Positions 17,550-33,613 of a stretch of 64,000 nucleotides of DNA are shown piece after piece; positions within the stretch are counted from its first letter, which is position 1, and every line of letters starts with the position of its first letter. The DNA lies in NCBI RefSeq assembly GCF_016924755.1, contig NZ_JAFFJX010000004.1, forward strand, positions 1-64,000, written 5' to 3'. The position numbers and the translations under genes are program-made. The stretch is from Longitalea arenae (GTDB taxonomy: Bacteria > Bacteroidota > Bacteroidia > Chitinophagales > Chitinophagaceae). The notes beneath the pieces were generated by a model that was given only the letters and a program-made list of their open reading frames with translations, made no database searches and was not told where the DNA came from.

Positions 17550-18317
17550 ATGCTGCCTGAAAACGATTGGTTGGCTTTTTCCTTCTTCTCCCCACAGCAA
17601 GAATGGCCACGTTTCCTCGACGTGCTGGATGGCTTTTTGAATTCAGGCGCCATCAAGCCGTTAATGGCCATGCGCATAATTAAATTTAGTCAGTTGTATG
17701 GCAGCAATATCCGGCTTTTTGTACAGGCAACTGCCGGCCAAAGCCCTCTGCTCCTAGCAGAATTGCAAGCTTTTTTTGCAAACAACTTTCCGCTGCAGAT
17801 CATCCCGGGCAGGCATGGCCAAACACCTGCCGGTAACAGGGAGATGCTGATGATCCGGGTATTGTTATCAGATTTGATGATAAAAGCCTTCTGCACCGAA
17901 CCTGTGAATGATGAAACATTATTAACCGTGGCCCTTTACCTGCAGTTCGCGCTCCTGAAAGACAAAAAGGCTGCCAAGACCATTTTATCGTCCTTTGCAG
18001 GTACAGCCATCTTTATAGATGACCGCTTCCTATGTGCAAGCCAGTTGGAAGAAGAATATATTGCCAACTGCGAATTTTTGCATGAGATAAAAAGCCACCT
18101 GGAAGGCAATCAATTTGCCGTGCTGCCTTCTTGGTTACCGCCATGGTTAGCCGGCTATGAAATGATCTTGCGAAGCATTCCGGAACATCGATTGCCGGCC
18201 TTCTGCCGCAGCACTTTATATTCGGTCATAAAACAGCTTGGCTTAAGCGTTTCGCTGGTCACCAGGCTGGAATATTACATTAAAAAAAGCGCGCAAGCTG
18301 AAACTGTAAAAAACTGA
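17550..18317 (+). CDS. Stand-alone SpaB C-terminal-like (thiopeptide-type) protein, tentative
   Basis: The 255-residue soluble protein has an opening WLAFSFFSPQQEWPRFL, a strand IIKFSQLYGSNIRLFVQ, and an ending with IKQLGLSVSLVTRLEYYI. This layout resembles the C-terminal domain of LanB dehydratases and 'thiopeptide-type bacteriocin biosynthesis' proteins, which perform glutamate elimination or act as relatives such as pyridine synthases. The resemblance is by pattern only. No large dehydratase domain accompanies it in the window. It is 36 nt upstream of a DUF3405-like gene, probably one transcript, and 6.0 kb from the precursor array. If the match is right, it may act on the same peptides. 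Otherwise it is a hypothetical protein. Confidence 0.45.
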   Translation: MLPENDWLAFSFFSPQQEWPRFLDVLDGFLNSGAIKPLMAMRIIKFSQLYGSNIRLFVQATAGQSPLLLAELQAFFANNFPLQIIPGRHGQTPAGNREMLMIRVLLSDLMIKAFCTEPVNDETLLTVALYLQFALLKDKKAAKTILSSFAGTAIFIDDRFLCASQLEEEYIANCEFLHEIKSHLEGNQFAVLPSWLPPWLAGYEMILRSIPEHRLPAFCRSTLYSVIKQLGLSVSLVTRLEYYIKKSAQAETVKN

Positions 18318-18353
18318 ATGATCAGCTATGCTCATCGATAAACCTTTTCCAAA

Positions 18354-19130
18354 ATGAAACAAGCATTCCTGTTACTTAGCAACAAATGCTCATCTCCAAT
18401 TACCACACTTTATCAACAGCTAAAACAGGCTACAAAGGCGCTGGGTGACCTGTTCCTGTTATATCATCAAACAACAGCTGTTCTTCCGGAAGCGCTCAAC
18501 GGTATCAACACCAGCTGTTTTTCTGACAATCTTCTCACCGATCTGCATTATATCCCTATATCCCATAAACTGATACCAGGTAATAATCATTTTCCGCTGC
18601 TGGATTTTTATCGGAAAAACCCGGTATATGATTTTTACTGGTTTATCGAGGACGATGTTCGTTTCAATGGTCCCTGGCAAGACCTTTTTAATTATTTCAC
18701 CTTGCAACCTGAACCGCCTGATTTTATCAGTTCACACCTAAGGACCTTCAAGGAAGAGCCATCCTGGTACTGGTGGGATACCTTGTTTCACTTCAATACC
18801 AGGATACCGCATAACCTGCGTATCAGGTCATTCAATCCTCTTTACCGCATCTCATATGCTGCATTAAGTTGTATTGATTTTATTTTAAGCGTCGATAAAT
18901 GGCGCGGACATCATGAGGTACTGTTGCCGACCATCCTTTCACTGGAAGGATACCAGATAGCAGATTTCGGCGGTACAGGGCAATTTGTACCGCAAGGTCA
19001 GCAGAATAAATTTTACCTGGATGATGATCCGGACCAGAGTGGTTCTATAAACACCGGCACCATGCGATACAGGCCTTTCATAAACCGGCTTGAATATGCC
19101 GGTAAATTATATCATCCTGTAAAAGACTAA
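18354..19130 (+). CDS. DUF3405/glycosyltransferase-like protein
   Basis: The 258-residue protein contains FYWFIEDDVRFNGPW at about residues 96-110, an acidic motif of the kind used by nucleotide-sugar transferases and typical of DUF3405. There is no signal peptide or membrane helix. It follows the SpaB-like gene by 36 nt and converges on the GT14-like gene, with 7 nt between the ends. Together with the GT14-like and two-domain transferases it gives three sugar-transfer candidates around the RiPP precursors. Its substrate cannot be told from sequence. Confidence 0.55.
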   Translation: MKQAFLLLSNKCSSPITTLYQQLKQATKALGDLFLLYHQTTAVLPEALNGINTSCFSDNLLTDLHYIPISHKLIPGNNHFPLLDFYRKNPVYDFYWFIEDDVRFNGPWQDLFNYFTLQPEPPDFISSHLRTFKEEPSWYWWDTLFHFNTRIPHNLRIRSFNPLYRISYAALSCIDFILSVDKWRGHHEVLLPTILSLEGYQIADFGGTGQFVPQGQQNKFYLDDDPDQSGSINTGTMRYRPFINRLEYAGKLYHPVKD

Positions 19131-19137
19131 TGGTATA

Positions 19138-20028
19138 CTATTTTGCATGGCCGTTCGCAGCAGTACTTACCTGTTTGATATGTGCTTCCAGCCGGTCTAG
19201 CACCGGTGAATTGCCTTCGTCCACGAATTTTCTGGCCCATAACCTGTCAGATTGCACCAGGTCATCCCACTCATTCATGGTGAAGGTACGCGGATGCGCA
19301 CCTCCCCCCACCCACTCGATATGCTTCAGGTTGTTATTTATTGTGTGCTCTTTGAAGGGCGAATTCAGTATGATCGTATTGAAAAAAGTTTCATCCGGAA
19401 TAAAGCAATATTGAAAATACGCTTCATACACCGGATTGTTTCGCAAAAACCGCAACACATAGTCAGCACATTCAGTAGTAATACACCACCATTGTGAACC
19501 GCCGTAGGGTGGCACTTCGCGAAAATAAAGCCTTTGCATTCCATTATACTTCTGCATCTCGTAGAGTTTGTAACAGCTTTCGATGTCGATGGTATCAACA
19601 AACCATAGATATTGGATCCTGTCGAGACCATTATTCAATCCCCAGTTATCGTTGGGCAGGGCAAAATACTCCAGGTATTCGCGTCCGTTGTTCTCCTTCA
19701 GAAAGTCATAAATGTATGCTGGTGACTTGATCGGAAAATCCTGGCCACTTAGTAAAATAAGATAACCGGCTTCCTTTTTCCTGCAGGCGGCGCGTATCAG
19801 CCCAAGGGTTGCCCGTACCATATTATAGCCACCCCAGTTAATCTTGTGACGGTTTCGCATGACAGTTATTCCGGGTGTATTGAAAAAGGGATATCTCCGG
19901 ATCTCTTCCAGGGGTATGCGTGCATCAAAATGGATAAAAAATTCAGCCTGCTCATGCCTTAAAGCATTGATCATCCGGTTTACCTGCGGCAGATTTTTAT
20001 GGGCAAGTATTAAATAGAAAAGTTTCAT
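19138..20028 (-). CDS. Core-2/I-branching type (GT14) glycosyltransferase
   Basis: The 296-residue protein begins FYLILAHKNLPQVNRMI, followed by FFIHFDARIP, INWGGYNMVRATLGLI and LLSGQDFPIKS. These are hallmarks of the beta-1,6-N-acetylglucosaminyltransferase (Core-2/I-branching, xylosyltransferase-like) family. Later motifs GGSQWWCIT and FIPDETFFNT fit the family's catalytic region. It is cytoplasmic, with no leader. A 16-nt gap separates it from the upstream response regulator gene, so the two form an operon. The acceptor could be surface glycan or, given the context, a RiPP. Confidence 0.82.
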   Translation of the reverse strand: MKLFYLILAHKNLPQVNRMINALRHEQAEFFIHFDARIPLEEIRRYPFFNTPGITVMRNRHKINWGGYNMVRATLGLIRAACRKKEAGYLILLSGQDFPIKSPAYIYDFLKENNGREYLEYFALPNDNWGLNNGLDRIQYLWFVDTIDIESCYKLYEMQKYNGMQRLYFREVPPYGGSQWWCITTECADYVLRFLRNNPVYEAYFQYCFIPDETFFNTIILNSPFKEHTINNNLKHIEWVGGGAHPRTFTMNEWDDLVQSDRLWARKFVDEGNSPVLDRLEAHIKQVSTAANGHAK

Positions 20029-20961: not shown

Positions 20962-23352
20962 ATGAGAATTGCGATCCTCCTTATTTCTACACTTTTTTTT
21001 ACGGAAGTGTATACACAAACAATAAAGGGGAAAATAATAGATAAAAACAGTGAAAAGGCCTTACCCTATGCCACCATTGTTATTAAAAAAGATACCGTTG
21101 TTTACAGAACAGCTATAACAGACAGCCTGGGCATTTACTCAATAACCGATCTGGCCGGCGGTAACTATAGCATCGAGTTTTCGTTCATCAATTATCAAAA
21201 AGCAACTATGTCTGTCTTTCTTACACATGACACCCTGCTTAAGACCATTGCCCTGACTCCTTTACCAGGCCAGTTAAAGGAGGTAACACTCACTGCCCGA
21301 AAACCGCTGATAGAAAGAAAAGCCGACCGCCTGATCTTTAACGTGGCAAACAATGTAAATGTCGTTGGTACCGATGCGTTGGAACTGCTGGGCAAAACAC
21401 CGCAGATAAGAGTAGACAAAGACGCCATCTCCATGATCGGCAAAGGATCGGTACGGGTAATGATAAACGATAAGATCTTACAAATGCCGTCTGAATCGCT
21501 GGCCGCCTATCTAAAATCGATACCCGCCGAATCTGTTGAGAGCATTGAAGTGATCTCGAACCCGCCAGCGATGTATAGCGCAGAGGGGAGTAGCGGCCTG
21601 GTGAATATAGTACTTAAAAAGAAAAGGGAGCCGGGATACACAGGAACAGTGAATCTCAACCTCACCACACCACCATCGCCAAGAGTCAATCCCAACCTCA
21701 ATATAAATTACAATAAAAAAAATATCAGGTATTATGGCAGTATAAATGCTGCGAGGGGTTATCAAAATCCGGCATTTACCACCACTATCCTGTATCCCGA
21801 TCGAACACAGGATGCAAAAATGAAAGAGAAAGAAGAATCGCAGTTTGCGGGCGGCCAGCTCGGTTTTGATGCAGACCTCACAAAGACGGCCTCACTGGGC
21901 ATTTCATTTAATATCTTTTATTCCTTCCCTTACCAAACCAATAATATCCGTACGGTCTTTACCAATAACAAAACAAAGAAAACTGATTCCATTTCAGAAC
22001 AACAGAACAAAAACAAGATCGCCTACCGTTCCAAATCTTCCAATATTCATTATGTAAAATACTTCGACACAGTTCGCAAAAAGAAACTGGTAGTTGATGC
22101 CGACTGGTTCTCCAATGGATTTGATTTTCCCAATAAAATAAAGAGCACAATGACAGGAGCCGATGGTGTTGCTATGCCCGACAGAACATCGGAAACCTTT
22201 TCCAATAATACCCTGGCGTCCACTATCTACTCCTTAAATGCGGTTGCCACGCTGCCGACCAAAAAATACGAAGTAAATATTGGCGGAAAAATAAACTTTA
22301 TAAAAAGCAGCAACGATGTAAGCCTGATCATTAATAATATTGGCAGGAACGTTGAAGAGCTGAACACGTCCAATGCTTTCTCCTTTACGGAGAATACGCA
22401 GGCGCTATTCATAAATTACAAAAGGGATCTTGGTAAAAAATGGTCTTTCCAGACCGGTTTAAGAGCAGAGAATACGCAAACCCGCGGTGAAGCCTCTTAT
22501 CTGGGGCATGACAGTATCAATAAAAATACCTATTTCGAGCTGTTTCCAACGGCTTATTTGTCGCACCGGGTAAGTGATAAATATTCCATATCTGCCAACT
22601 ATGGCCGAAGAATAAACCGGCCGGGTTTTAACAGTTTTAATCCTTACCCCCAATATTCTTCCCAATACATGTATTCTGAGGGGAATCCCTATTTGCTGCC
22701 TTCCATCTCCAACAATTTTGAGCTGAATCAAACCATTGGAGATCTTGACTTATCTGCCCAATACAGCTTTAGCAATGAACAGGTGGGCAGGATCGGAGAA
22801 GTAGATTCCGCAACCAATATTACGATCACCAGACCATCAAACTTTTTATCGACCAGGTCTTTTGTCGTTAGCACCTATTACACGTTTAATAAGATAAAGT
22901 GGCTGCAGAGCATGAATGAGGTGGATGTGTACTGGAATAAATCTATTTCCAGATCCAGCTTAACCCCTACCATTGCCGGATGGGCAGGCAGCATTCGAAG
23001 TGACAATAGCATTTTTTTCAATAAAGCAAGAACGATCATCGGCGGCCTCAATTTCTATTATCAGTTTCCGGAGATCATTGGTATCAACAAATTCAAAAGC
23101 TGGTATTATCTCGATGTGTCTGGCAAATACTTACTGCTGAACAATAAATTGCAGCTAAGCTTCCGGATATCGGATATATTCAAAACATTGAACCTGCCGT
23201 TCAGCAGCACGGTAAACAACATAGTGACCACGAATATGGTGAACAATGACAGCAGGAGGTTTTACATTTCGGCCCGGTATACATTTGGCAATTCAAAACT
23301 AAAAAAAGGCGAGGCGCATTCGGGCGACTCAAACAATAACAGAGCATTTTAA
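20962..23352 (+). CDS. TonB-dependent receptor-like outer-membrane beta-barrel protein
   Basis: The 796-residue protein has a signal peptide (about 1-18) and a carboxypeptidase-regulatory-like domain (TIKGKIIDKNSEKALPYATI). The plug domain shows VGTDALELLGKTPQIRV and SIEVISNPPAMYSAEGSSG. A C-terminal barrel of the outer-membrane beta-barrel family type completes it. It is the first gene of the plus-strand run leading into the precursors, 5 nt ahead of the next gene. In this setting it may export, re-import or sense the modified peptide, or serve immunity, but it lacks any visible ligand-specific feature. Confidence 0.82.
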   Translation: MRIAILLISTLFFTEVYTQTIKGKIIDKNSEKALPYATIVIKKDTVVYRTAITDSLGIYSITDLAGGNYSIEFSFINYQKATMSVFLTHDTLLKTIALTPLPGQLKEVTLTARKPLIERKADRLIFNVANNVNVVGTDALELLGKTPQIRVDKDAISMIGKGSVRVMINDKILQMPSESLAAYLKSIPAESVESIEVISNPPAMYSAEGSSGLVNIVLKKKREPGYTGTVNLNLTTPPSPRVNPNLNINYNKKNIRYYGSINAARGYQNPAFTTTILYPDRTQDAKMKEKEESQFAGGQLGFDADLTKTASLGISFNIFYSFPYQTNNIRTVFTNNKTKKTDSISEQQNKNKIAYRSKSSNIHYVKYFDTVRKKKLVVDADWFSNGFDFPNKIKSTMTGADGVAMPDRTSETFSNNTLASTIYSLNAVATLPTKKYEVNIGGKINFIKSSNDVSLIINNIGRNVEELNTSNAFSFTENTQALFINYKRDLGKKWSFQTGLRAENTQTRGEASYLGHDSINKNTYFELFPTAYLSHRVSDKYSISANYGRRINRPGFNSFNPYPQYSSQYMYSEGNPYLLPSISNNFELNQTIGDLDLSAQYSFSNEQVGRIGEVDSATNITITRPSNFLSTRSFVVSTYYTFNKIKWLQSMNEVDVYWNKSISRSSLTPTIAGWAGSIRSDNSIFFNKARTIIGGLNFYYQFPEIIGINKFKSWYYLDVSGKYLLLNNKLQLSFRISDIFKTLNLPFSSTVNNIVTTNMVNNDSRRFYISARYTFGNSKLKKGEAHSGDSNNNRAF

Positions 23353-23357
23353 TAAAT

Positions 23358-24242
23358 GTGTTCAACATGCAACTGGCTAGCAGCGGAACAAGCTTTAACT
23401 ACCGGCAAGATCCTGGCGGTTTTTATATAACGGCAATGGTAAATGCGCTTTTTCAAAAAGAAGAACAGGCGCAATATGTGGAGGCTGTTACAGCATTTGA
23501 TCACTGCTTTCAGCTGGCCAAACAAAATAGACTGGAGGAAGCTGTTTTTGCATACTCAGCATGCAACAGCATCAGCAGCACACTCGCCCCTTCATTACTC
23601 GACTGGGTAATGGCATTTTATGGCCAGCGGCTCTGTTACTACCATTATAAAAGTAAAAATTACGAAGCAGGAGCCAGCTTAACAAAGCAGATAAGCAAAT
23701 CAGTTAATAGGCTTTATGAAAATGGCCATCAAATCATGTTCTTTGTCGACATCCAACAAAGGCTTAATCTCAGCAGGATCTACTTTGCGCAGCATAAAGT
23801 AGAAAAGGCCATTTCATTATGTACAGAAAGTGTAATCGATATGTATCATAAATCGGGCGCTTTCCATAGCCAACAGTTCATCAATGACGTTCCGGAAAAT
23901 GAGCTGCTCGAGATCACACAATATGGAATGATGGTGGAAGTGCTGACCGATGCCTGCAACAGGATCCTGTCAAGCTCAAAAGAAGATGCCGGCCAGGTTG
24001 AGAAAGCAACTATAACGCTTATAACACCGCTGATTGACCTGGATTTCAGCAGCATTTCTAACGATTTAAAATATACGGGCATCAATAAGTTCCTTTCATT
24101 GCTTGGTGGATTGACGGGCTACCGTGAGCTCCAGGATAGCGATATTCTTTACTTTATGAATAGCCCGTATGCCGATAAAAAAATGCTGATGGTTTTAAAC
24201 AATTACATAGCCATGGCAAATGTATTAGACGGCAGCCCTTAA
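23358..24242 (+). CDS. Hypothetical protein of the RiPP operon
   Basis: I do not recognise this 294-residue protein. It is soluble, rich in helices and aromatic residues, with segments such as FDHCFQLAKQNRLEEAVFAY and RIYFAQHKVEKAISLC that look like TPR-style helix pairs. It starts with GTG at 23358, or ATG at 23367, 5-14 nt after the receptor gene, and ends 58 nt before the first precursor. The tight spacing suggests a job in the same pathway, for example peptide binding or scaffolding. That is inference from position only. Confidence 0.6.
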   Translation: MFNMQLASSGTSFNYRQDPGGFYITAMVNALFQKEEQAQYVEAVTAFDHCFQLAKQNRLEEAVFAYSACNSISSTLAPSLLDWVMAFYGQRLCYYHYKSKNYEAGASLTKQISKSVNRLYENGHQIMFFVDIQQRLNLSRIYFAQHKVEKAISLCTESVIDMYHKSGAFHSQQFINDVPENELLEITQYGMMVEVLTDACNRILSSSKEDAGQVEKATITLITPLIDLDFSSISNDLKYTGINKFLSLLGGLTGYRELQDSDILYFMNSPYADKKMLMVLNNYIAMANVLDGSP

Positions 24243-24300: not shown

Positions 24301-24507
24301 ATGAAAAAAACGATCAAGATCCTTCTCGAAAAGATGGACAAGCTGCAGGAAAGTAAAGATGGAACGCTTCAGGGCGGGTTTTCCTCCATCAGGGGCGGCC
24401 TTAACTTTAATGACAGCACCAACCAAAGTTGTACAAACGTAAAAGACTGCTCAAAATCTACCAATACCGGTACACCTACCTGTACCAATGTACAGTGTTT
24501 TATGTAA
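24301..24507 (+). CDS. RiPP precursor peptide 1
   Basis: 68 residues. The leader MKKTIKILLEKMDKLQE is shared by the family, followed by LQGGFSSIRGG, and a 35-residue core starting LNFND. The core has four Cys: CTNVKDC and CTNVQC, the second one residue shorter than in its siblings, with STNTGTPT between. It ends CFM. It resembles the Bacteroidota double-glycine natural product precursors that are paired with radical SAM maturases (TIGR04149-like). It is first of six tandem copies. Confidence 0.88.
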   Translation: MKKTIKILLEKMDKLQESKDGTLQGGFSSIRGGLNFNDSTNQSCTNVKDCSKSTNTGTPTCTNVQCFM

Positions 24508-24537
24508 TCAGCCTTTCACAAACCTTCATCCAGCAAT

Positions 24538-24738
24538 ATGAAAAAGACAATCAAGATCCTGACAGTAAAAATGAACAAACTGCAGGAGAAAAAAGACGGT
24601 CATCTAGAGGGTGGATTTGCCTCTATTAAAGGTGGGTACAATTATTCAAATACCGTAAACGAGTACTGCTCCAACACAGGTAATTGTACACAGTACACTA
24701 ATTTCTGCCCCGGTAACCCCGGTGTGTGCGTTATATAG
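24538..24738 (+). CDS. RiPP precursor peptide 2 (most divergent core)
   Basis: 66 residues. The leader is slightly changed (MKKTIKILTVKMNKLQE), then LEGGFASIKGG. The 33-residue core begins YNYSN and has CSNTGNC and CPGNPGVC, so the second Cys pair has six residues between instead of five. It lacks the STNTGTPT linker and ends CVI instead of C-[FLY]-[MF]. It lies 30 nt after precursor 1. The differences suggest an older or functionally distinct copy. Confidence 0.87.
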   Translation: MKKTIKILTVKMNKLQEKKDGHLEGGFASIKGGYNYSNTVNEYCSNTGNCTQYTNFCPGNPGVCVI

Positions 24739-24781
24739 CTCTCCTGCGCACTCATTACATCCTGCTTTATGTAACCTCGCG

Positions 24782-24798
24782 CTGGCATCGCATGCCAG
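24782..24798 (+). other. Hairpin between precursors 2 and 3
   Basis: A perfect 7-bp stem CTGGCAT/ATGCCAG with a CGC loop lies in the longest gap of the array (105 bp). A T6 run starts 9 nt after it. It may stabilise or partly terminate the upstream message; it is too far from the T-run for a classic terminator. Confidence 0.4.
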
Positions 24799-24843
24799 GT
24801 CTGTACTTTTTTGCCCGATACTTTCACTAATAAAAATTAAAAA

Positions 24844-25053
24844 ATGAAAAAAACAATTAAGATCCTGGCAGCTGAAATGGAAAAGCTGCAGGAAAAGAAT
24901 GATGGCACATTACAGGGCGGTTTTGCCTCCATAAGAGGTGGGTTCAGCTTTTCAGATAGTACCAATCAAAGCTGTTCCAATACAAAAGACTGCACCAAAT
25001 CGACCAATACCGGTACGCCTACGTGCACGAACTACAATACCTGTTTAATGTAG
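24844..25053 (+). CDS. RiPP precursor peptide 3
   Basis: 69 residues. Leader MKKTIKILAAEMEKLQE, then LQGGFASIRGG, and a 36-residue core beginning FSFSD. Cys units are CSNTKDC and CTNYNTC, joined by TKSTNTGTPT; the end is CLM. The core is closest to precursor 1, differing mainly in the last unit, which has the standard five-residue spacing. Confidence 0.88.
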   Translation: MKKTIKILAAEMEKLQEKNDGTLQGGFASIRGGFSFSDSTNQSCSNTKDCTKSTNTGTPTCTNYNTCLM

Positions 25054-25126
25054 TAGCTATATCATCCCCACCTTTTACCGGGCTAACCAATACCGTTTTT
25101 CTTTCATTAACCATAAATTTCAAAAA

Positions 25127-25342
25127 ATGAAAAAAACAATCAAGATCCTGTTGGAGAAAATGGACAAACTACAGGAAAAAAGCGATGGCTCGTTACAGGG
25201 CGGTTTTGCATCTGTTAAAGGTGGTTTTAGCGCAACCAGTTTTGGGGTAAATGATACGCCAGCCGGTTGCTCAAACACCTTTGACTGCTCAAAATCAACC
25301 AACGTATACTCCTGTAGCAACAGTATGATCTGTTTAATGTAG
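25127..25342 (+). CDS. RiPP precursor peptide 4
   Basis: 71 residues. Leader MKKTIKILLEKMDKLQE, then LQGGFASVKGG, and a 38-residue core beginning FSATS. Cys units are CSNTFDC and CSNSMIC with SKSTNVYS between; the end is CLM. The gap to precursor 3 is 73 nt. Confidence 0.88.
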   Translation: MKKTIKILLEKMDKLQEKSDGSLQGGFASVKGGFSATSFGVNDTPAGCSNTFDCSKSTNVYSCSNSMICLM

Positions 25343-25371
25343 CAATTATTTATTAACTAAAAATGTAAATC

Positions 25372-25587: not shown

Positions 25588-25615
25588 AAAAAGCTAAAAT
25601 TTAAACTTTTAAAAA

Positions 25616-25828
25616 ATGAAAAAGACAATCAAGATCCTGCTGGAGAAAATGGACAAGTTGCAAGAAAAGGATGGCACGCTACAGGGTGGTTTTGCTTCCA
25701 TTAAAGGAGGATTCAATGTAACTTATGATAGTGAGAACAAGTCCAATTGCACGAACTCGGGCGATTGTACCAGAACCACTAATACGGGCACCCCAACTTG
25801 CGTCAACTCAGGGACCTGCTTCTTTTAA
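25616..25828 (+). CDS. RiPP precursor peptide 6
   Basis: 70 residues. Leader MKKTIKILLEKMDKLQE, then LQGGFASIKGG, and a 38-residue core beginning FNVTY. Cys units are CTNSGDC and CVNSGTC with TRTTNTGTPT between; the end is CFF. It is the last copy, 28 nt after precursor 5. A 191-nt gap with a weak GCAGGG/CCCTGC hairpin separates it from the maturase gene. Confidence 0.88.
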   Translation: MKKTIKILLEKMDKLQEKDGTLQGGFASIKGGFNVTYDSENKSNCTNSGDCTRTTNTGTPTCVNSGTCFF

Positions 25829-26019: not shown

Positions 26020-27312
26020 ATGAAAGCGAGTAAATTCAATATATTCTTCCCGCACGAGGATAAAATAGTAGGGTTCAACAGCTATACGTCTGAATATATC
26101 GTACTTGAACCAATGCTGTACGAAATGTACGATGCCTGTTTTAAACAGAATAGTTTCGATGACCTGGGCGAAGTGCATCCGGCATTTTATTCTTTTCTCT
26201 GTGAAAAAGAGTTTTTGGTAGATGAAACATTAGATGAAATTCAACGGGTAAAAGAGTATTCGTATAAAATTGATAATGACGAAACCCGGTATGAACTGCA
26301 TATCAACCCTACCATGAACTGTAACTTCAAATGCTGGTACTGTTATGAAACGCATATAAAAGATTCGAAAATGGACCAGCAGACGATCGATCATACCCTC
26401 AAATACGTAAACAATGTATTTGAACAAAAGAAGCAACTGCAGCAGTTCTCGATCGGCTGGTTTGGTGGAGAGCCTTTGTTATACTATAAAAAGGTGGTTT
26501 TACCCATACTCGAAGCGGTGTCTGCGCTTGCCAGCGAGCGGGGAATTACCTTCTTTTCGTCCATGACGACCAATGGGTTGCTCATTAACGATGAAACCAT
26601 CGAAACCGCCAAAAAATATGGGCTTAATTTTTTCCAGATCACCCTGGATGGCAACCGCGAAAAGCACAATAAAGTACGTTTTATTTCAGAAGGAAGAGGC
26701 TCATATGACCAGATCACCGCAAACATCGTTTCACTCGCCCGTGCAGGTTTAACAGTCGTTGTGAGGATCAACTGCTCGGCAGACACGCTTAACGGTATAA
26801 ACGACATAGCTGCCGATTTTTCTCATGTAGAAGAAGAAGCAAGGCGATTTATGACCTTCGACTTCCACGCTGTATGGCAGGAAAACGAGGATCTCTTCGA
26901 TCAATTGTACGAAACCAGGGTTTACTTCAGGCAACAGGGTTTTGCCGTGGAAAGCGGCTCCCTGAATTCCGTTTTGAATTCCTGCTACGGTGATCACAGA
27001 AATCATGCGACCATCAATTACAATGGAGAGGTATTCAAGTGCACCGCCCGCGACTTCACTACCCAAAACAGTGAAGGCCTCCTGGCTGACAACGGTACCA
27101 TTAACTGGAATGAAAAACTGGAAAAAAGACTCAACAGCAAGTTTAAAAACAAACCCTGTCTTGAATGCGCGATACTGCCTATCTGTGGCGGGGGCTGCAC
27201 CCAGCAGGCGGTTGAACACGAAGGTGTGGATTATTGCGTGAATGACTTCGATGAAACCAAAAAGCGCAAGATCGTTATCAATAAATTTCTGGAAACTTTA
27301 GCAGCATACTGA
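26020..27312 (+). CDS. Radical SAM/SPASM peptide maturase
   Basis: The 430-residue enzyme carries the radical SAM cluster motif C101-x3-C105-x2-C108 (CNFKCWYC), GGEP-type SAM contact WFGGEPLLYY and a TIM-barrel core. The C-terminal SPASM domain has C at SCYGD, FKCTARD, CLECAILPICGGGC and DYC, enough for two auxiliary iron-sulfur clusters. The first about 80 residues may form a peptide-recognition domain. SPASM maturases usually install thioether or C-C crosslinks in RiPP cores, and the Cys-rich precursors just upstream are the obvious substrates. Its stop codon overlaps the next start (TGATG at 27310), so the C39 gene is translationally coupled. Confidence 0.92.
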   Translation: MKASKFNIFFPHEDKIVGFNSYTSEYIVLEPMLYEMYDACFKQNSFDDLGEVHPAFYSFLCEKEFLVDETLDEIQRVKEYSYKIDNDETRYELHINPTMNCNFKCWYCYETHIKDSKMDQQTIDHTLKYVNNVFEQKKQLQQFSIGWFGGEPLLYYKKVVLPILEAVSALASERGITFFSSMTTNGLLINDETIETAKKYGLNFFQITLDGNREKHNKVRFISEGRGSYDQITANIVSLARAGLTVVVRINCSADTLNGINDIAADFSHVEEEARRFMTFDFHAVWQENEDLFDQLYETRVYFRQQGFAVESGSLNSVLNSCYGDHRNHATINYNGEVFKCTARDFTTQNSEGLLADNGTINWNEKLEKRLNSKFKNKPCLECAILPICGGGCTQQAVEHEGVDYCVNDFDETKKRKIVINKFLETLAAY

Positions 27313-27644
27313 TGAGGACATTCCCTTTTTATGCCCAGCATGATATCATTGATTGTGGCCCTACCTGCCTGAAGATGATCGCCAAATATTATGGCAAGGA
27401 TTATTCACTGCAATACCTGCGCGAGCTTTGTTTCCTGACCCGCGAAGGTGTAAGCCTTTTAAGCATCAACGATGCAGCCGAAAACCTTGGCTTCAGGACC
27501 ATGATGGCGTATTTATCTTTCGACCGGCTGGTAAATGATAGTCCATTACCCTGTATTTTGCATTGGAACCAGGACCATTTTATCGTTTTGCATAAAGTAA
27601 AAAAAAAAGCTTTGTCATTGCCGATCCCGCCCACGGGATCGTAA
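27312..27644 (+). CDS. C39 peptidase half of exporter, ended by a frame change at A10
   Basis: The 110-residue ORF begins as a bacteriocin-processing C39 peptidase, with the QHDIIDCGPTCLKMI motif (catalytic C15) and HWNQDHFIVLH (H89). After VKKK at residues 96-99, encoded by a run of ten A (27599-27608), it continues for 11 unrelated residues and stops. The expected continuation SFVIADPAHG, with the third catalytic residue Asp, lies in the -1 frame. The short product would therefore lack the Asp. It starts inside the stop codon of the maturase gene. Confidence 0.85.
   Translation: MRTFPFYAQHDIIDCGPTCLKMIAKYYGKDYSLQYLRELCFLTREGVSLLSINDAAENLGFRTMMAYLSFDRLVNDSPLPCILHWNQDHFIVLHKVKKKALSLPIPPTGS
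27599..27608 (+). other. A10 slippery run at the C39/ABC frame junction
   Basis: Ten consecutive A follow GT at 27597-27598. One extra A in the transcript, or a -1 ribosomal shift, joins the peptidase frame to the ABC frame without any stop, giving VKKKSFVIADPAHG. Runs of this length are known sites of transcriptional slippage. A read or assembly error is the alternative. Confidence 0.75.
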
Positions 27645-27703: not shown

Positions 27704-29491
27704 GTGTTATTATTGGAACCTGCACCGGATTTTTATATAAGGGACACAGTTAAAGAAAACACCACCGGCGCCTGGTTCCTGTTCCGGTATCTTTTGCCAT
27801 TTAAAAAATATATTGTGCAGTTGCTGACCGGCATGATGATCACCACACTCATTTCGCTGGCCTTTCCCTTTTTAATGCAAATGATGATCGATGAGGGAGT
27901 GAACAACAAAAGCAAATCGGTTGTCTTTCTCGTTCTTCTCTCACAGCTCTTTTTGTTCATCGGAAAAACAGTAATTGACATCATCAGAAGCTGGCTGATA
28001 TTACATATGAATACGCGGATCAGTTTCAACATTATTTCAGATTTTCTAATAAAACTGCTCAGGTTACCCATCAAATTCTTTGATAGCAAAACCGTGGGCG
28101 ATATCTCGCAGCGTATTAATGATCATCACCGCATTGAAAATTTTCTGACCGGTTCGGTGCTCAATTCCGTATTCTCGATCATAAACATTGTCTTTTTTAC
28201 ATTCGTCATTGCTTTTTACAGTGTAACCATCTTTTCGATCTTCATTGTATTAAGCACTGTTGGTGTTATGTGGATCCTGCTTTTTCAAAAAAGGAGAAAA
28301 CAACTGGATTATAAACGTTTCGCCAGGAACCGGGAAAACCAGGACAAGTTATATGAAATGATCACTGGCATGCAGGAAATAAAACTCTATGGCAGTGAAA
28401 CGCCCAAACGCTGGGAATGGGAGCAATTGCAATTAAAGTACTTCAGGCTCAATATTAAAAGCCTCGCGCTCGAGCAATACCAGCAAACAGGCTTTACTTT
28501 TTTCACCACTTTGAAAAATATCGTCATTTCATTTATTGCCGCCAATGAAGCTATAAACGGGCATATAACCCTGGGTGTGCTGTTAAGCATCTCTTATATC
28601 GTTGGACAAACGAACGGGCCCATAGAACAATTGGTATCGTTTGTAAAATCGGCACAGGATGCCCGGCTGAGCATGAGCCGGCTGCAGGAGATCCATAACA
28701 AAAAAGAGGAAGAGAAAAACGAAAACATTGAACCGAATCAAACGATCAGCCACGAAGATATCCACCTGAAAAACGTTTCCTTTCAGTATGAAGGCCCTAA
28801 ATCGCCCCTTGTACTGAATAATGTATCGTTGACCATCCCAAGAGGTAAGGTGACTGCCATCGTAGGGGCCAGCGGTAGCGGAAAAACCACACTAATGAAA
28901 TTGCTGCTGGGCTTTTACAACCCGGTTGCCGGTGAAATACTTATCGGCGACAGGGAACTGCGCACCATTTCACCCCGATTATGGCGCAGGGAAACCGGTT
29001 CGGTCATGCAGGATGGATATATCTTTTCCGACACCATTGCCAGAAATATTGCAATGGACGGAAAAGAGATCGATCCTCAGAAAATGGATAATGCAGTGGT
29101 CACTGCCAATATAAAGGAATTTATAGAAAAGCTGCCACTGGGCTATACGACCAAGATCGGCCCATCAGGAATTGGATTAAGCGGCGGGCAAAAGCAACGG
29201 ATCCTGATTGCGCGCGCCATTTACAAAAACCCAAACTATCTTTTTTTCGACGAAGCTACCAGCAGCCTGGATGCTAACAATGAGCGCATCATCATCGATA
29301 ACCTGAATGACTTTTTCAAAGGACGAACCGTTTTGATCATTGCACACAGGCTGAGCACCGTAAAAAATGCAGACCAGATCATTGTGCTGAAAAACGGGAA
29401 AATAGCAGAGCAGGGCAATCATGAATCGCTCACACGATTAAAAGGAAGATATTTTGAACTGGTAAAAAACCAACTTGAATTGGGAGGATAA
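27704..29491 (+). CDS. ABC exporter half (membrane and ATPase domains) of C39-type transporter
   Basis: The annotated start is a GTG at 27704, but the frame is open back to the A10 run at 27608, and the missing residues (FVIADPAHGIVKVDKETFLK) are typical C39-domain sequence. The protein has a six-helix exporter domain and an ATPase with Walker A GASGSGKTT, signature LSGGQKQRILIA, Walker B YLFFDEATSSLD and His-switch IIAHRLST. Joined to the upstream part it would be about 726 residues, the usual size of a peptidase-containing bacteriocin exporter. It should cut the precursors after Gly-Gly and export the cores. Confidence 0.88.
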   Translation: MLLLEPAPDFYIRDTVKENTTGAWFLFRYLLPFKKYIVQLLTGMMITTLISLAFPFLMQMMIDEGVNNKSKSVVFLVLLSQLFLFIGKTVIDIIRSWLILHMNTRISFNIISDFLIKLLRLPIKFFDSKTVGDISQRINDHHRIENFLTGSVLNSVFSIINIVFFTFVIAFYSVTIFSIFIVLSTVGVMWILLFQKRRKQLDYKRFARNRENQDKLYEMITGMQEIKLYGSETPKRWEWEQLQLKYFRLNIKSLALEQYQQTGFTFFTTLKNIVISFIAANEAINGHITLGVLLSISYIVGQTNGPIEQLVSFVKSAQDARLSMSRLQEIHNKKEEEKNENIEPNQTISHEDIHLKNVSFQYEGPKSPLVLNNVSLTIPRGKVTAIVGASGSGKTTLMKLLLGFYNPVAGEILIGDRELRTISPRLWRRETGSVMQDGYIFSDTIARNIAMDGKEIDPQKMDNAVVTANIKEFIEKLPLGYTTKIGPSGIGLSGGQKQRILIARAIYKNPNYLFFDEATSSLDANNERIIIDNLNDFFKGRTVLIIAHRLSTVKNADQIIVLKNGKIAEQGNHESLTRLKGRYFELVKNQLELGG

Positions 29492-29497
29492 AAGAAC

Positions 29498-29983
29498 ATG
29501 CCAGACAATAAATACGAGATCAGGAATAATGAGGTGCAGGAAATAATGTGTAAACCACCGCATTCATTTATTGCATACGGCAACAGGGTAATGCTTTTCA
29601 TCCTGCTTGTAGCATTTTACCTGCTTAACAGGTTTCCGCTGTATATGCGGGAAACAACCCATTTCCAAATTGCCGGCATCGAAACAGCCGGCCATGAAAA
29701 TGATTCTGTTGTGCTGGTGCTTGCATTGAACAACAGCATTTCAAAAGAAGTAAAACCCGATCAGGCAGCAAAGATAGCTGTAAACAACCTGAAGTTTAAT
29801 GATAAAGAACACATGAATGGTAAGATCTGCCGTATTGACCATACCCAATACAATGCACCGGTACTGTATGTTAAATGTGATCGCACAGCTATAAACACCA
29901 AAAAAGGAATGATCGGGAACCTCGAAATCATTATTAAAGAAAGAACCTTTCTATCCATGCTGGTAGACCGGTTTCAACTGTAA
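29498..29983 (+). CDS. Short HlyD-like membrane fusion protein
   Basis: The 161-residue protein has one N-terminal membrane helix (about 29-45, VMLFILLVAFYLLNRFPLYM). Its C-terminal end, KKGMIGNLEIIIKERTFLSM, matches the closing segment of HlyD-family adaptors. The long coiled-coil hairpin and lipoyl halves are absent, so it is less than half the usual size. It is 6 nt after the exporter gene and probably serves as its periplasmic partner. How it would reach an outer-membrane channel without the hairpin is unclear; the beta-barrel receptor of the operon could replace that link. Confidence 0.6.
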   Translation: MPDNKYEIRNNEVQEIMCKPPHSFIAYGNRVMLFILLVAFYLLNRFPLYMRETTHFQIAGIETAGHENDSVVLVLALNNSISKEVKPDQAAKIAVNNLKFNDKEHMNGKICRIDHTQYNAPVLYVKCDRTAINTKKGMIGNLEIIIKERTFLSMLVDRFQL

Positions 29984-30001
29984 AAATTCAAAATAGGTAT
30001 T

Positions 30002-31750
30002 ATGATCTTTCTTTCAGCTCAACCAGATGATTATTATTTTACCTGGCAACTGGAATTACAATTGTATAATTTTAACCAGTTAGGCATACCTGCGGAAAAT
30101 ATTCATGTGCTGATCGGCTACGATCCTAAAAAAGGGCTGCAACATTATTTTCAGGACCTGATAGCACAGAACAGCGATAAAGCCTGCTTTTTTACTTACG
30201 CCGATACAAGAAAACAAAACAACTACCTGTCTTCTATCCGGCCACATATTATTCAAAAACACCTGCAGGCAAATCCACACATTGAACAGGAAGCTATATT
30301 CTATCACGATGCGGATATCATATTCCGCGAGTTGCCCGATTTTGAAGAAATGGTAAGGGATGAAGTATGGTACCTCTCCGACACCAGGGCTTATACCGGC
30401 AGTGAGTTTATTATTCAGAATGGCGGAGAAGTGACCTTTAAAGCGATGTGTGCCGTTGTGGGCATCGACCCGGAAGTGGTTGTGCAAAATGATGTCAACT
30501 GCGGCGGCGCCCAGTATCTTTTAAAGAGAACAACAGTGGCCTTCTGGAACAAGGTAGAACGCGATTGTGAAGCCCTGTATACCTTGATGGAAGACCACAA
30601 TCACCGGCAGGCGGAACTTTTTTACAGAAAGTTTGGAAAACCCCAGGCGACCTTTATAGGCGTTCAAAGCTGGTGCGCCGACATGTGGGTTGTATTCTGG
30701 AACGCTTTGTTACAGGGAGTGCAATGCCGTATTCACCCCGACCTGAATTTCCTGATTGCGAAAAGCCCCGTTGAAGAATGGGCCACAACTAAAATATTAC
30801 ACTATTCAGGGGAAGCGGTAAACAGTCCCGGCCCCTTGTTCAGGAAGATCAATTACCGGCATTTCGTTCCTTATTATGACCAGGAGCTGGAAACGATAGA
30901 TTATTCAAAAACAGCCAGTTTCCACCTCGTAAAACTTATTAAAGAATACAGACAAAAATTAGACGAAGACCGGATCGACCTGCGCGATGTCACCTTCCTG
31001 ATACCGGTTCGCATTGACGGTGAAAGCAGGCTAAAGAACCTTTATATTGTAACGGCCTGCCTCAATAAATACTTTAAAACGAATATCCTTATAGGAGAAT
31101 CAGATACCGGTTCAAAAATTGATGTTTCACAGTTGCCGGCATGCTGTAAATGTATATTTATTGAAGACAGCGATGTATTTCTTCACAGAACCAAGGTGAA
31201 TAATATTCTTATTAAAAATGCCAGCACGGAGATAATCGCCATCTACGATACCGACGTGGTATTCCCGATCGATCAGATCGTGCAGAGTGTTCAATTGATC
31301 AGGCAGGGATCAGCCGCCATGGTCTCTCCTTATGATGGAGATTTTGTGGGCATTACCAATATATTCAAGAGTATGATGGAGAAAATACTCGATCCGGAAT
31401 TGCTTAGTTTGAATCTTAAAAAATTTCATCTTGTATCCCGGCGGTCTTATGGCGGTGCTGCATTTCTCAATCGTACAGCATATATCGCAGCGGGAATGGA
31501 GAATGAACATTTTACCAGTTGGGGGCCCGAAGATATTGAACGGCCTAAACGAATGAAAAATCTTGGTTACAAGGTGAAACGGATACAAGGACCTTTATTT
31601 CATTTGCCGCATGCGCGCAACATTAACTCCGGTTATCCCAACAGTGACTATTATGTGCATTTTATGGAAGAGTATTTCAGGATCAGCGATATGAACAAAC
31701 AACAGCTGGAAACTTATATTGATACCTGGGAATGGTGTAACTTAAAATAA
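30002..31750 (+). CDS. Two-domain glycosyltransferase
   Basis: The 582-residue protein seems to be a fusion of two sugar-transfer domains. The N-terminal half has FYHDADIIF (D103-x-D105), a DxD-type metal and nucleotide-sugar motif. The C-terminal half has the GT2 opening FLIPVRIDGESRLKNL, IYDTDVVF and SWGPEDIERPKRMKNLGYKV. The last resembles the GWGGEDDDL motif of galactosyltransferase-type GT2 enzymes. It lies between the export genes and the LanC-like gene, so peptide glycosylation is a reasonable guess. Ser, Thr and Asn are abundant in the cores. Confidence 0.75.
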   Translation: MIFLSAQPDDYYFTWQLELQLYNFNQLGIPAENIHVLIGYDPKKGLQHYFQDLIAQNSDKACFFTYADTRKQNNYLSSIRPHIIQKHLQANPHIEQEAIFYHDADIIFRELPDFEEMVRDEVWYLSDTRAYTGSEFIIQNGGEVTFKAMCAVVGIDPEVVVQNDVNCGGAQYLLKRTTVAFWNKVERDCEALYTLMEDHNHRQAELFYRKFGKPQATFIGVQSWCADMWVVFWNALLQGVQCRIHPDLNFLIAKSPVEEWATTKILHYSGEAVNSPGPLFRKINYRHFVPYYDQELETIDYSKTASFHLVKLIKEYRQKLDEDRIDLRDVTFLIPVRIDGESRLKNLYIVTACLNKYFKTNILIGESDTGSKIDVSQLPACCKCIFIEDSDVFLHRTKVNNILIKNASTEIIAIYDTDVVFPIDQIVQSVQLIRQGSAAMVSPYDGDFVGITNIFKSMMEKILDPELLSLNLKKFHLVSRRSYGGAAFLNRTAYIAAGMENEHFTSWGPEDIERPKRMKNLGYKVKRIQGPLFHLPHARNINSGYPNSDYYVHFMEEYFRISDMNKQQLETYIDTWEWCNLK

Positions 31751-31757
31751 TACAACG

Positions 31758-32876
31758 ATGCTCACAACAATCGAATTATTAAAAAACACAGAGAACTTTA
31801 TAAGAGAAGCCAACAAAGAGCCGGATGGTATTACCGATACTGGTTTATGGAATGGCCATACAGGCATGGCTATTGTTTACTATTTATTGGCCAGGCACAG
31901 CGCTGATGCCTCATTTGCCGAAAAAGGATTGCAACTATTAGACTCGGTAAGTGAGACCGGCGTACCGGGCGGTGACCTCAGTTTTGCCAATGGCCTCACC
32001 GGGGTAGGCTGGGCCATAGAATGGCTGGCACAAAATGAATTGATGGAAGATATCAATACAGATGAAGTGCTGGAGCCTATTGACAGCATGCTTTATAATG
32101 CAGTTTGTTACAGCCGGGACGAGAACCCATCCTTATCGCATGGAACCCTGGGAAAGATCGCTTATTTTATACAAAGAGCACAAAGCAGGAACGCCGCGAC
32201 CAACCGGTATAAAACCATCGGCCACCTGGAATGCCTGATCTTGTCACTCGACGATCTGGCGGAAAAAACCGCGGATGCGCTGACGATTCCAGACCAGCAG
32301 GATTCAAACGCCAACAACAGGCGCATGCACCTTTGTAATCTTGCTGAAATACTTTATATCATTTCAGGAATTAAAGTGCAGGTAAATTCCCCCGTCACCG
32401 GAAAACTCATGTATGACGCTATAAATTACGCGGAATATATTTTATCGGGATCAGTGATGAATGATGAAAGAGCTGCCCGGCAACCGGATGAATGGCTTGA
32501 CCTGCTTTATGTGGCCACCAGCTATTTGATCGCGGCCCGGTTGAATAACAATAAATTCTGGGAATCGCAGGCTGCAGATTACATAGCACGTATCATTCCA
32601 TTTGCTGATGATAACTCAGGCCTCACCACTGAACAACAATTCCAGAAACTGGTCTTGTTCAGCCTGCTCAATTTTTATCATCCGGCACAGCAATACCGCA
32701 TTGTGATTGAAGATCTGCTCACCCATCTTTCTTTTCTGGAGCTGCCTCCGGCCCTGTTAAATGGTTATGGAACACTGGCGATAGTGGAATTATGTTTGCT
32801 GAATCCGGGGCTAATCGACAACTGGTATGAAGTGATGTTTTTTTCAAGGCAGCCGTATAAAAGGGATCCTCAATAA
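31758..32876 (+). CDS. LanC-like protein lacking zinc ligands
   Basis: The 372-residue protein has the repeated alpha/alpha-barrel motifs of lanthionine cyclases: GLWNGHTGMAIVYY, LSFANGLTGVGWAIEWL, SLSHGTLGKIAYFI and LLNGYGTLAIVELCLL. In active LanC proteins zinc is held by WCxG and CHG motifs near the C-terminus. Neither is present, and the four cysteines here lie elsewhere. It is therefore either a non-catalytic scaffold or an enzyme with altered chemistry. It begins 7 nt after the glycosyltransferase gene and its last 7 nt overlap the end of the methyltransferase gene on the other strand. Confidence 0.72.
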   Translation: MLTTIELLKNTENFIREANKEPDGITDTGLWNGHTGMAIVYYLLARHSADASFAEKGLQLLDSVSETGVPGGDLSFANGLTGVGWAIEWLAQNELMEDINTDEVLEPIDSMLYNAVCYSRDENPSLSHGTLGKIAYFIQRAQSRNAATNRYKTIGHLECLILSLDDLAEKTADALTIPDQQDSNANNRRMHLCNLAEILYIISGIKVQVNSPVTGKLMYDAINYAEYILSGSVMNDERAARQPDEWLDLLYVATSYLIAARLNNNKFWESQAADYIARIIPFADDNSGLTTEQQFQKLVLFSLLNFYHPAQQYRIVIEDLLTHLSFLELPPALLNGYGTLAIVELCLLNPGLIDNWYEVMFFSRQPYKRDPQ

Positions 32877-33613
32877 TGGCTTCTTATGGGCGCCGTATGA
32901 AATGCCTGACCAAGCGTACACCAGGCGAGGCTTGAACCGGCAATATTGAACGCCAGCCCGAATTCCTTTTTCCAGCGTTCAATGATATCCTGTTCTCCCT
33001 TGCGGTTCACATCATCCAGATATACCGATGATCTGGATTGTAATCTATCGATCAAATAAGGGAGAGCGGGGTATCTCGCCCTTTCTTTTGATGGCTCCCA
33101 GGCGGGAGGTCCGTCAATGATCGCCATATCGAATTGCCGGTCTTTCAGTGCAAGGTTCAAAAGATCAACAGCATACCATAAACTTCCGTCCAAAGCGAGA
33201 TCGCAGGGTCTTAATGGTATGGAAATAACGGTGGCAACCTCGCACAATTGCTCATTTTTAAGTTGTTCGTTTATCAGTTTCGCCCAGGCGTCTTCGTGGT
33301 CAACAGAAATGACGGTCGTATTCAGGCCATTCTTTTTAATAAGCCGCGAGATCAATATAGTAGATATACCTGCACCGAACTCTATGATACATTGCCGGCC
33401 ATTAATAATAATATCGTTTATTATATGGTTAATACAATAAGGCCGCATGGAAAAACCTGTAAACCCCAAATATGGATATCCTTGCATAAGCGGCTGCAGT
33501 AAGCCCAGACTGTATACGTCTTCCGTTCTGCGTTCGTTTTGGTTAATACCATTAGCCATATATTCCAGCAATGATATCAACTTCTCCACATCATTTGATT
33601 CTTTCCGCGGCAT
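32870..33613 (-). CDS. Class I SAM-dependent methyltransferase-like protein
   Basis: The 247-residue protein has a Rossmann SAM site, CIIEFGAGISTILISRLIK, then TTVISVDHEDAWAKL and the motif IV equivalent FDMAIIDGPPAWEPSKE, as in Methyltransf_24-type enzymes. The end is YLDDVNRKGEQDII followed by a beta segment. It is transcribed toward the RiPP operon and overlaps the LanC-like gene by 7 nt, tail to tail. It could modify the peptide or belong to an unrelated unit; its opposite strand argues for separate control. Confidence 0.7.
   Translation of the reverse strand: MPRKESNDVEKLISLLEYMANGINQNERRTEDVYSLGLLQPLMQGYPYLGFTGFSMRPYCINHIINDIIINGRQCIIEFGAGISTILISRLIKKNGLNTTVISVDHEDAWAKLINEQLKNEQLCEVATVISIPLRPCDLALDGSLWYAVDLLNLALKDRQFDMAIIDGPPAWEPSKERARYPALPYLIDRLQSRSSVYLDDVNRKGEQDIIERWKKEFGLAFNIAGSSLAWCTLGQAFHTAPIRSHY

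Follow-up and report, generated by a model that had tools for sequence, protein, structure and literature searches.

A Radical SAM Peptide Locus of Longitalea arenae in which a Predicted Glycosyltransferase is Paired with a LanC-Like Protein Lacking the Zinc Triad

Introduction

What is a LanC-like protein doing in a peptide locus that encodes no dehydratase? The question is raised by a stretch of 64,000 nucleotides from the 7.28-Mb genome (completeness 99.98%) of Longitalea arenae, a member of the Chitinophagaceae; this whole stretch, positions 1 to 64,000 of contig NZ_JAFFJX010000004.1, is called the window below. A first-pass annotation had predicted there a family of crosslinked, possibly glycosylated peptides, encoded together with a radical SAM maturase, a LanC-like protein, and glycosyltransferase genes. 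We observe that the LanC-like gene adjoins the gene of a two-domain glycosyltransferase (GT), that this pair recurs in other peptide loci of Bacteroidota, and that the LanC-like proteins linked to GTs have lost the zinc triad in all but one case. Our reading, to which we assign about an even chance, is that the operon makes six crosslinked, glycosylated peptides and that the LanC-like protein is a pseudo-cyclase serving the GT.

Similar gene combinations are partly on record. In 1,136 Bacteroidales genomes, the consulted sections of PMC10352776 (2023) count 263 areas with radical SAM and LanC genes and 41 areas with radical SAM, LanC, and GlyS genes. According to the same sections, the zinc motif is missing in three curated LanC clusters, LanB is absent, and these LanCs are proposed to be endoglucanase-like and to stand outside lanthipeptide biosynthesis. 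The initial view that no described class shows this mix of genes has to be narrowed because of these 41 areas; in the open-access literature, a scope beyond which most subscription papers lie, the cluster type was not recognized outside Bacteroidales.

Results and Discussion

Organization of the Locus

The genes in question form a single run on the plus strand (20962-32876), with the outer-membrane barrel at its head and the LanC-like protein at its end; intergenic gaps are -1 to 191 bases, and the order is as follows.

20962..23352, plus strand: outer-membrane beta-barrel, PF14905 OMP_b-brl_3 with N-terminal CarboxypepD_reg (Pfam, 248.9 bits)
23358..24242, plus strand: TPR-like protein, 294 aa (Pfam TPR_2, 18.6 bits, under cut-off)
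24301..25828, plus strand: six tandem four-Cys precursors with Gly-Gly (GG) leaders; open reading frames (ORFs) 24301-24507, 24538-24738, 24844-25053, 25127-25342, 25372-25587, and 25616-25828
26020..27312, plus strand: radical SAM/SPASM maturase, 430 aa (Pfam Radical_SAM, 68.2 bits)
27312..27644, plus strand: exporter ORF 1, C39 leader-peptidase domain, 110 aa (Pfam Peptidase_C39, 97.1 bits)
27599..27608, plus strand: run of ten A, frame change of the exporter
27704..29491, plus strand: exporter ORF 2, ABC membrane and ATPase domains, 595 aa (Pfam, 110 and 101 bits)
29498..29983, plus strand: short HlyD-like membrane protein, 161 aa (phmmer relatives; no Pfam match)
30002..31750, plus strand: predicted two-domain GT, N-domain phrog_4417 and GT7C-like C-domain phrog_15655 (Pfam, PHROGs, AF2 model)
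31758..32876, plus strand: LanC-like protein without the zinc triad, predicted GT partner (Pfam LANC_like, 28.4 bits; AF2 model; alignment)

Every gene of this run named at first pass (the six precursors, maturase, exporter, GT, LanC-like protein, and barrel) was found. Curated Pfam cut-offs are exceeded by Radical_SAM (68 bits), Peptidase_C39 (97), ABC_tran (110), OMP_b-brl_3 (249), Glyco_transf_7C (25), and LANC_like (28), and also by the flanking response regulator and Methyltransf_24 proteins.

The LanC-Like Protein and its Zinc Triad

The nine best Foldseek matches of the LanC-like model (AF2, pLDDT 80.8) are LanCL, LanC, or CuvL proteins (TMq 0.52-0.65), including LanCL2 (TMq 0.62-0.65), LanCL1, CuvL, and NisC; as modeled, the protein has the LanC alpha/alpha-barrel fold. 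The zinc triad (Cys, Cys-His), in contrast to the fold, is missing. In an alignment of 28 LanC-type proteins grouped by GT adjacency, from which the truncated L173 (259 aa) was omitted, the triad is missing in 15 of the 16 proteins that adjoin or are fused to a GT and is kept in 11 of the 12 others. The corresponding tree separates 16 triad-less proteins, namely these 15 and L180, which was placed with them after its sequence had been inspected, from 12 triad-bearing ones at support 95/95. A pair of "C,H" residues at the C-terminus of one fused protein, L140, is a chance occurrence, as the first Cys is missing. Distant LanC matches from the class search mostly keep the triad and were used for comparison; LanB lies in the fetched stretch for nine of the twelve triad-bearing proteins.

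Both hallmarks of class I lanthipeptides, LanB and the LanC zinc triad, are lacking. The best PF04738 score in the whole genome is 9.2 bits against a cut-off of 28, so that a LanB encoded elsewhere was rejected, as was zinc-dependent LanC activity of the window protein, given the missing triad. Nor was a LanM, LanKC, or LanL seen in the scanned run, outside which no search aimed at lyase or DUF4135-type domains was made. Because nearly all GT-linked LanCs are triad-less and the genome has no LanB, the locus is probably not a lanthipeptide locus and the LanC-like protein is probably not a cyclase, contrary to its initial description as a lanthipeptide-type part. Elsewhere in the collection, true or truncated LanC genes adjoin Peptidase_S41 genes (L173, L176, and L181), an unusual pairing.

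Recurrence of the GT and LanC Pair

The neighborhoods of related maturases were collected by a pattern-based scan of named genomes, which gave the best 80 loci of 538 relatives in 586 stretches; adding 11 loci from further genomes resulted in 91 loci, or 92 with the window. Duplicates (L013, L015, and L060, identical with L078, L101, and L136), a partial locus (L063), and weaker maturase matches (L005-L012) were excluded. Genes were counted from 6 kb upstream to 10 kb downstream of the maturase, and 62 of the 91 loci have good flanks (at least 4 kb upstream and at least 5 kb downstream).

A two-domain GT followed by a LanC-like gene is found at 5 of the 92 maturase loci, including the window. 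The automatic count near the 91 others was 3, missing Rhizosphaericola mali, for which the contig opened right beside the GT. In Sphingobacterium paludis and S. mizutaii the order of the window is kept (barrel, precursor, maturase, exporter, short HlyD-like, GT, LanC). R. mali carries its copy on pB3-10 (NZ_CP044017.1), a circular plasmid of 30,333 bp typed as mobilizable, in the order GT, LanC, barrel, five precursors, maturase, exporter, HlyD-like; the same plasmid has an AbiEii/AbiGii-type gene, an AAA ATPase, and a relaxase, and the chromosome of this strain contains a second GT and LanC locus (L029). The pair of Bacteroides fragilis S82 has diverged, its GT having a degenerate second domain and its LanC-like protein being short.

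Another arrangement is provided by five Bacteroidaceae and Prevotellaceae loci, in which a GT2-GT2-LanC fusion of 803-867 aa, with two GT2 stretches each, adjoins the maturase. The fusions retain approximately 220-235 residues of the LanC fold; L133, L140, and L143 pass the LANC_like cut-off, L132 is just under it (22.8 of 23.2 bits), and the LanC end of L142 is detected only by our in-house LanC profile. On the maturase tree, built by a quick method, the starred branches require at least three changes for the pair and at least three for the fusion; thus, both were gained or lost several times. The first-pass annotation had named conservation restricted to maturase and exporter, the other genes varying at random, as the outcome that would speak against its prediction. 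The neighborhood search gives a different result, since the GT and LanC genes recur in Sphingobacterium, on the R. mali plasmid, and in the five Bacteroidales fusions. The pair therefore belongs to the system, and the predicted family of crosslinked, glycosylated peptides is compatible with the gene content.

The pair also occurs without a maturase, in four genomes. Near the pair, the G247 chromosome and G439 both encode a C39/ABC-type exporter as well as a Cys peptide with a GG leader; G241 has ATP-grasp, HlyD, and exporter genes; and G294 has a thioredoxin gene and an exporter cut by the contig end. In G344 the GT adjoins a full LanC, with LanB in the stretch. Two proteins without any Pfam match at E 0.01 adjoin pairs where no maturase was seen (L029:10456-12852, 798 aa, and L034:10504-12090, 528 aa), and it is possible that they are new modifying enzymes.

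Does the pair act on the peptides at all? The GT and the LanC-like protein could modify some other target, such as the barrel, a surface glycan, or a carrier, and merely travel within mobile peptide loci. This explanation draws on the rarity of the pair among maturase loci, its occurrence without a maturase, the resemblance of the GT model to polysaccharide and proteoglycan enzymes, and three of the four loci with only the GT C-domain, where no LanC is found nearby (L169, L170, and L171, whereas a LanC-like gene adjoins L036). However, among the 12 loci that have the GT N-domain and enough context, a LanC-type gene adjoins the GT in ten (the window, L028, L029, L031, L032, L034, L035, L069, L071, and L127; the exceptions are L033 and L168). 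Each of these ten additionally has a gene for an exporter, a precursor, or a maturase. L037, which reaches a contig end, and L030, which matches over just 38 aa, do not enter this count, and the C-domain-only loci were kept apart. As the GT2-GT2-LanC fusions adjoin maturases as well, we consider a target other than the precursors unlikely.

The Glycosyltransferase and its Phage Relatives

The GT model (AF2, pLDDT 79.9, pTM 0.72) shows two GT-A domains. Its best Foldseek matches are LARGE1 and chondroitin polymerase, beta4GalT being matched as well; whole-chain TM is low (0.26-0.29), probably owing to a differing domain arrangement. The D103-x-D105 motif of the N-domain is invariant over seven sequences. 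By Pfam, Glyco_transf_7C alone is above cut-off and no GT2 match was obtained; a PDB sequence search with the GT profile gave only chance matches. The GT was found in 9 of 394 genomes in the family search and in 5 of 395 in the class search, the L. arenae genome being counted in both.

Both domains match phage protein families of the PHROGs collection, phrog_4417 (N-domain, 30002-30970) and phrog_15655 (C-domain), neither of which has a functional annotation. The N-domain is present in 74 of 50,697 phage records, from phages of Lactobacillus, Enterococcus, Staphylococcus, Lactococcus, and others. Gene context was read in three phage regions and in a prophage carried by an Enterococcus plasmid record. 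The phrog_4417 gene lies directly 3' of the major capsid gene in L185, second after the major capsid gene in L192, and directly 3' of the major tail gene in L193; around that of the Chryseobacterium phage (L191) there are no named genes. This position among head and tail genes in the three informative regions suggests protein acceptors, and by gene context phrog_4417 may be a virion glycosyltransferase. The phage proteins are homologous to the N-domain of the window GT but differ in being single-domain in the Enterococcus example (291 aa) and in lying among head and tail genes.

The Maturase and its Precursors

In ten aligned maturases, the CxxxCxxC motif (C101, C105, and C108) and the C-terminal cysteines on the SPASM side (341, 380, 383, 389, 393, and 406) are invariant. 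These Cys ligands, together with the adjoining short Cys-rich precursors with leaders, are the features of ribosomally synthesized and post-translationally modified peptides (RiPPs) of the radical SAM/SPASM type. Relatives of the maturase in PDB at E < 1e-5 are 5wgg/5why, 9gm3/9gmc, and the 5v1q group; the closest solved structure is 5wgg, which we take to be CteB. A scan of viral contigs with the maturase gave no relative.

The six precursor ORFs encode 66-71 aa. Their leaders share a mean identity of 82% and finish in two Gly-Gly motifs; the cores share 41% and have exactly four Cys in six of six cases. A C-[TSAV]-N motif, picked by eye after inspection of the cores, occurs 11 times in them against 1.3 expected; none of 5000 shuffles reached this count. 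The 80 candidate precursors obtained at 49 of the 91 loci contain the motif 70 times, compared with 16.7 in shuffles (0 of 1000 as high), the candidates having been selected by a crude filter that missed the precursors of L069 and L071, among others. The commonest distance from the Cys of a CxN module to the following Cys within eight positions is six, and the Sphingobacterium cores terminate in near-repeats of the module. Ruminococcin C is said to contain Cys-Asn thioethers, and PapB reportedly links Cys to Asp or Glu.

Homologues of the ABC exporter are found near 77 of the 91 maturase loci, of the barrel near 64, of LanB near 12, and of the TPR-like protein near 11; for the 62 well-flanked loci, the exporter is near 58 and the barrel near 52. 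The core of the locus, widespread in Bacteroidota, thus comprises the barrel, the precursors, the maturase, and the exporter. A sister clade of the maturase (L054, L055, L056, L059, L080, L084-L086, and L091) has LanB and a histidine kinase after the radical SAM gene. The TPR-like protein of the window is homologous to a protein of approximately 285 aa encoded 3' of the maturase in most of these loci. With LanB present in most loci of the clade, they look like hybrid radical-SAM/dehydratase peptide loci.

The Exporter and the HlyD-Like Protein

Both domains of a C39 double-glycine exporter and the GG leaders are present; a single intact exporter gene is not, because the C39 and ABC parts of the window copy lie in two different frames. 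The frame changes at the run of ten A, and the cause may be slippage, genuine damage to the gene, or an error of sequencing. Homopolymer runs are a weak spot of sequencing as well as sites of transcriptional slippage. In the relatives L052, L053, L067, L068, L069, and L071 the exporter is one ORF of 726-794 aa, and that of S. paludis stays in frame although the same lysine-rich stretch contains nine A. The exporters of L077, L105, L107, and L108 were likewise read as more than one ORF. If the break is real, the window copy would be decaying or silent and would export nothing; the differing frames and the other split exporters are in favor of this. Nevertheless, the remaining genes of the run are open, and the homopolymer and the in-frame run of S. 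paludis point to a less drastic cause; we regard a silent copy as quite improbable.

The HlyD-like gene, initially called a stub, is not a broken gene, because its nearest relatives by phmmer are equally short (160-178 aa in L052, L053, L067, L069, and L071); longer relatives of 244-245 aa are found in L054-L056 and L059.

The Outer-Membrane Barrel

In 47 of the 52 well-flanked loci having a barrel, it lies less than 2.5 kb upstream of the maturase on the same strand. As PF14905 has just 28 matches across the L. arenae genome, this association is far above background. The window barrel scores higher with its counterpart in the [Flexibacter] ATCC 35208 cluster (716 bits) than with the best paralogue in its own genome (262 bits, 30% identity); hence it travels with the cluster.

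The barrel also has TonB-dependent-receptor and weak plug matches. Together with the Cys-rich cores and the presence of a dedicated barrel in most well-flanked clusters, this would fit peptides that serve as metal carriers or signals rather than antibacterials, with the barrel re-importing the loaded product. However, PF14905 covers a wide range of proteins, the scanned operon genes include neither a metal transporter nor a reductase, and six diversified cores would be more in keeping with a varied set of weapons or lures. A role in metal uptake or signaling is, in our estimate, rather unlikely.

Proposed Function

A natural explanation of the gene set is the following. The radical SAM/SPASM enzyme would join Cys side chains to nearby residues within the C-[T/S]-N-xxx-C modules of the cores, and these crosslinks would be thioethers as in ranthi- or sactipeptides. 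One or two sugars would be put on the peptide by the tandem GT. The LanC-like protein, a cyclase fold minus the zinc site, would serve the GT, most likely as a holder of the peptide's leader or core. The C39/ABC exporter would cut past the second Gly-Gly and, together with the short HlyD-like protein, carry the product across the inner membrane, and the dedicated barrel would act for the cluster as gate, receptor, or immunity factor.

Several observations weigh against this reading. No two-domain GT or fusion was seen at 82 of the 92 maturase loci (58 of them well flanked; GTs of other types were not counted), and glycosylation of this kind is thus optional at best. The distances between GTs and those between LanCs are correlated (r = 0.90 for eight of ten pairs, L034 with its split GT and L036 being omitted; 1 of 5000 permutations as high), which speaks for a partnership but could be explained by shared descent alone. 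Split genes occur as well, the GT of G439 and the exporter of the window each being divided between two ORFs. L035, which is GT-adjacent with LanB nearby, keeps the triad, and the triad-less L180 adjoins an OEP/ABC/HlyD set without a GT. The maturase is under the curated cut-off of all NCBIfam families that it matches (TIGR04463, 168 of 525 bits; CefB, 161 of 600; Clo7bot, 147 of 600; PapB, 119 of 340); ten aligned relatives match the same families. A genome-wide LANC_like search found one 715-aa protein combining a kinase with a LanC-like part, encoded well away from the locus on contig C22 (L064, region C22:798663-799685; Pkinase 81.5 and LANC_like 99.9 bits, no lyase match), possibly a class III/IV-like synthetase or a regulator. 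Finally, the cyclase domains of class III lanthipeptide synthetases cyclize although they lack zinc ligands, and therefore triad loss alone is no proof of a pseudo-enzyme.

The last two points also leave room for a LanC-like protein with a chemistry of its own, either a glycan-active alpha/alpha-barrel or a zinc-free cyclase acting on residues dehydrated elsewhere. The former is favored by alpha/alpha-barrel glycan enzymes lower in the Foldseek list (E 0.1 and above) and by the likening of triad-less LanCs near carbohydrate-active enzymes to endoglucanases in the consulted part of PMC10352776. Yet all nine best structural matches are LanC, LanCL, or a LanC-bearing synthetase, there is no LanB in the genome and no dehydratase in the operon, and the fused versions retain only approximately 220-235 residues of the fold. 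Taken together, such an enzyme seems improbable.

The pseudo-cyclase reading can be extended, more tentatively and at somewhat less than an even chance. The LanC fold would be a non-catalytic substrate holder of tandem peptide GTs, encoded by a separate gene (Chitinophagaceae, Sphingobacterium, and Bacteroides) or fused as GT2-GT2-LanC (other Bacteroidales), and would define a phylum-wide group of glycosylated, radical-SAM-crosslinked peptides; phrog_4417 would decorate virion proteins of phages. The relatives found elsewhere suggest that a LanC-shaped partner of sugar enzymes is a recurrent and little-studied design in Bacteroidota. Hundreds of Bacteroidales radical SAM areas hold a LanC-like gene without LanB, as far as the consulted sections of PMC10352776 go. 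If their LanCs are pseudo-cyclase partners of GTs, many of these areas, including those of gut Bacteroides, would be predicted to make glycosylated radical-SAM peptides, and the unannotated phage family phrog_4417 would obtain its first function. The logic would otherwise be that of known RiPPs, with the pseudo-cyclase partner of a GT as the added element, and pB3-10 offers a natural plasmid-borne copy.

Comparison with Known Systems

The areas of PMC10352776 resemble the window, in the sections consulted, by a triad-less LanC-like protein with radical SAM, sometimes a glycosyltransferase, and no LanB. They differ in that the three curated LanC clusters carry pseudo-radical SAM proteins, whereas here the LanC adjoins tandem GTs or is fused to them, and this is seen beyond Bacteroidales and in loci lacking radical SAM as well.

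The ranthi- and sactipeptide clusters (SCIFF/CteB, PapB, Clo7bot, and TIGR04463) similarly have a SPASM maturase adjoining short Cys-rich precursors, and the nearest structure (5wgg) and best NCBIfam families (TIGR04463, CefB, and Clo7bot) come from this group. The scores, however, are far under the cut-offs (even the best, 168 of 525 bits), the CxN modules are Asn-rich, and the window adds the barrel, the GT, and the LanC-like protein.

Glycocins are S-glycosylated bacteriocins with a C39-type exporter, GG-leader Cys peptides, and a dedicated glycosyltransferase. The window has the same three components, but its GT has no GT2 match, which sets it apart from glycocins, and a maturase and a LanC-like protein are added. 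With class I lanthipeptides the window shares the LanC fold, and a true LanB is present in the sister-clade loci (L054 and relatives); the genome without LanB and the LanC-like protein without the triad set it apart.

Flanking Genes

GC content is reduced across 16 to 34 kb. An island inserted at tRNA-Lys (17361-17435) was considered and is unsupported, as a repeat of the tRNA end was not found; no integrase was seen among the Pfam-scanned genes between 13842 and 36837. Upstream of the run lies a possible accessory module.

17550..20028, mixed strands: possible accessory module, recurring as a trio in the congener G248
17550-18317, plus strand: protein without family assignment, member of the possible module
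18354-19130, plus strand: DUF3405-like (Pfam, 21.4 of 25 bits, under cut-off)
19138-20028, minus strand: GT14 Core-2/I-branching enzyme (Pfam Branch, cut-off passed)

All flanking genes of the first-pass annotation are present, but the GT14-like, response regulator, and methyltransferase genes are on the minus strand. The identity "SpaB-like" given to the first protein is unsupported: Pfam yields only DUF6024 at 15.6 bits, under cut-off, NCBIfam and PDB yield nothing, and the match to a LanB profile is not significant (probability 0.6%), although its register agrees with the beginning of the C-terminal domain of LanB. The response regulator and the methyltransferase, with homologues near 1 and 0 of the 91 maturase loci, are not conserved near the maturase.

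The status of the trio itself is mixed. Homologues of the 17550 protein, the DUF3405-like protein, and the GT14 enzyme are near 0, 0, and 1 of the 91 loci, respectively, and a gene of the 17550 type occurs in 2 of 107 family genomes, L. arenae included. In the other, G248, relatives of all three (42, 69, and 61% identity) are grouped together at a peptide locus. That locus (L190, G248:C38:193000-212900) contains a C39/ABC exporter, GT25-like and GT1-like genes among four glycosyltransferase-like genes overall, and, in tandem, six Cys precursors that have GG leaders but differ in type from those of the window, their cores being CCS..SCC; no radical SAM, LanB, or LanC was seen in the 20-kb stretch. 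The recurrence of the trio at this peptide locus, in one genome, lends some support to its participation in peptide tailoring.

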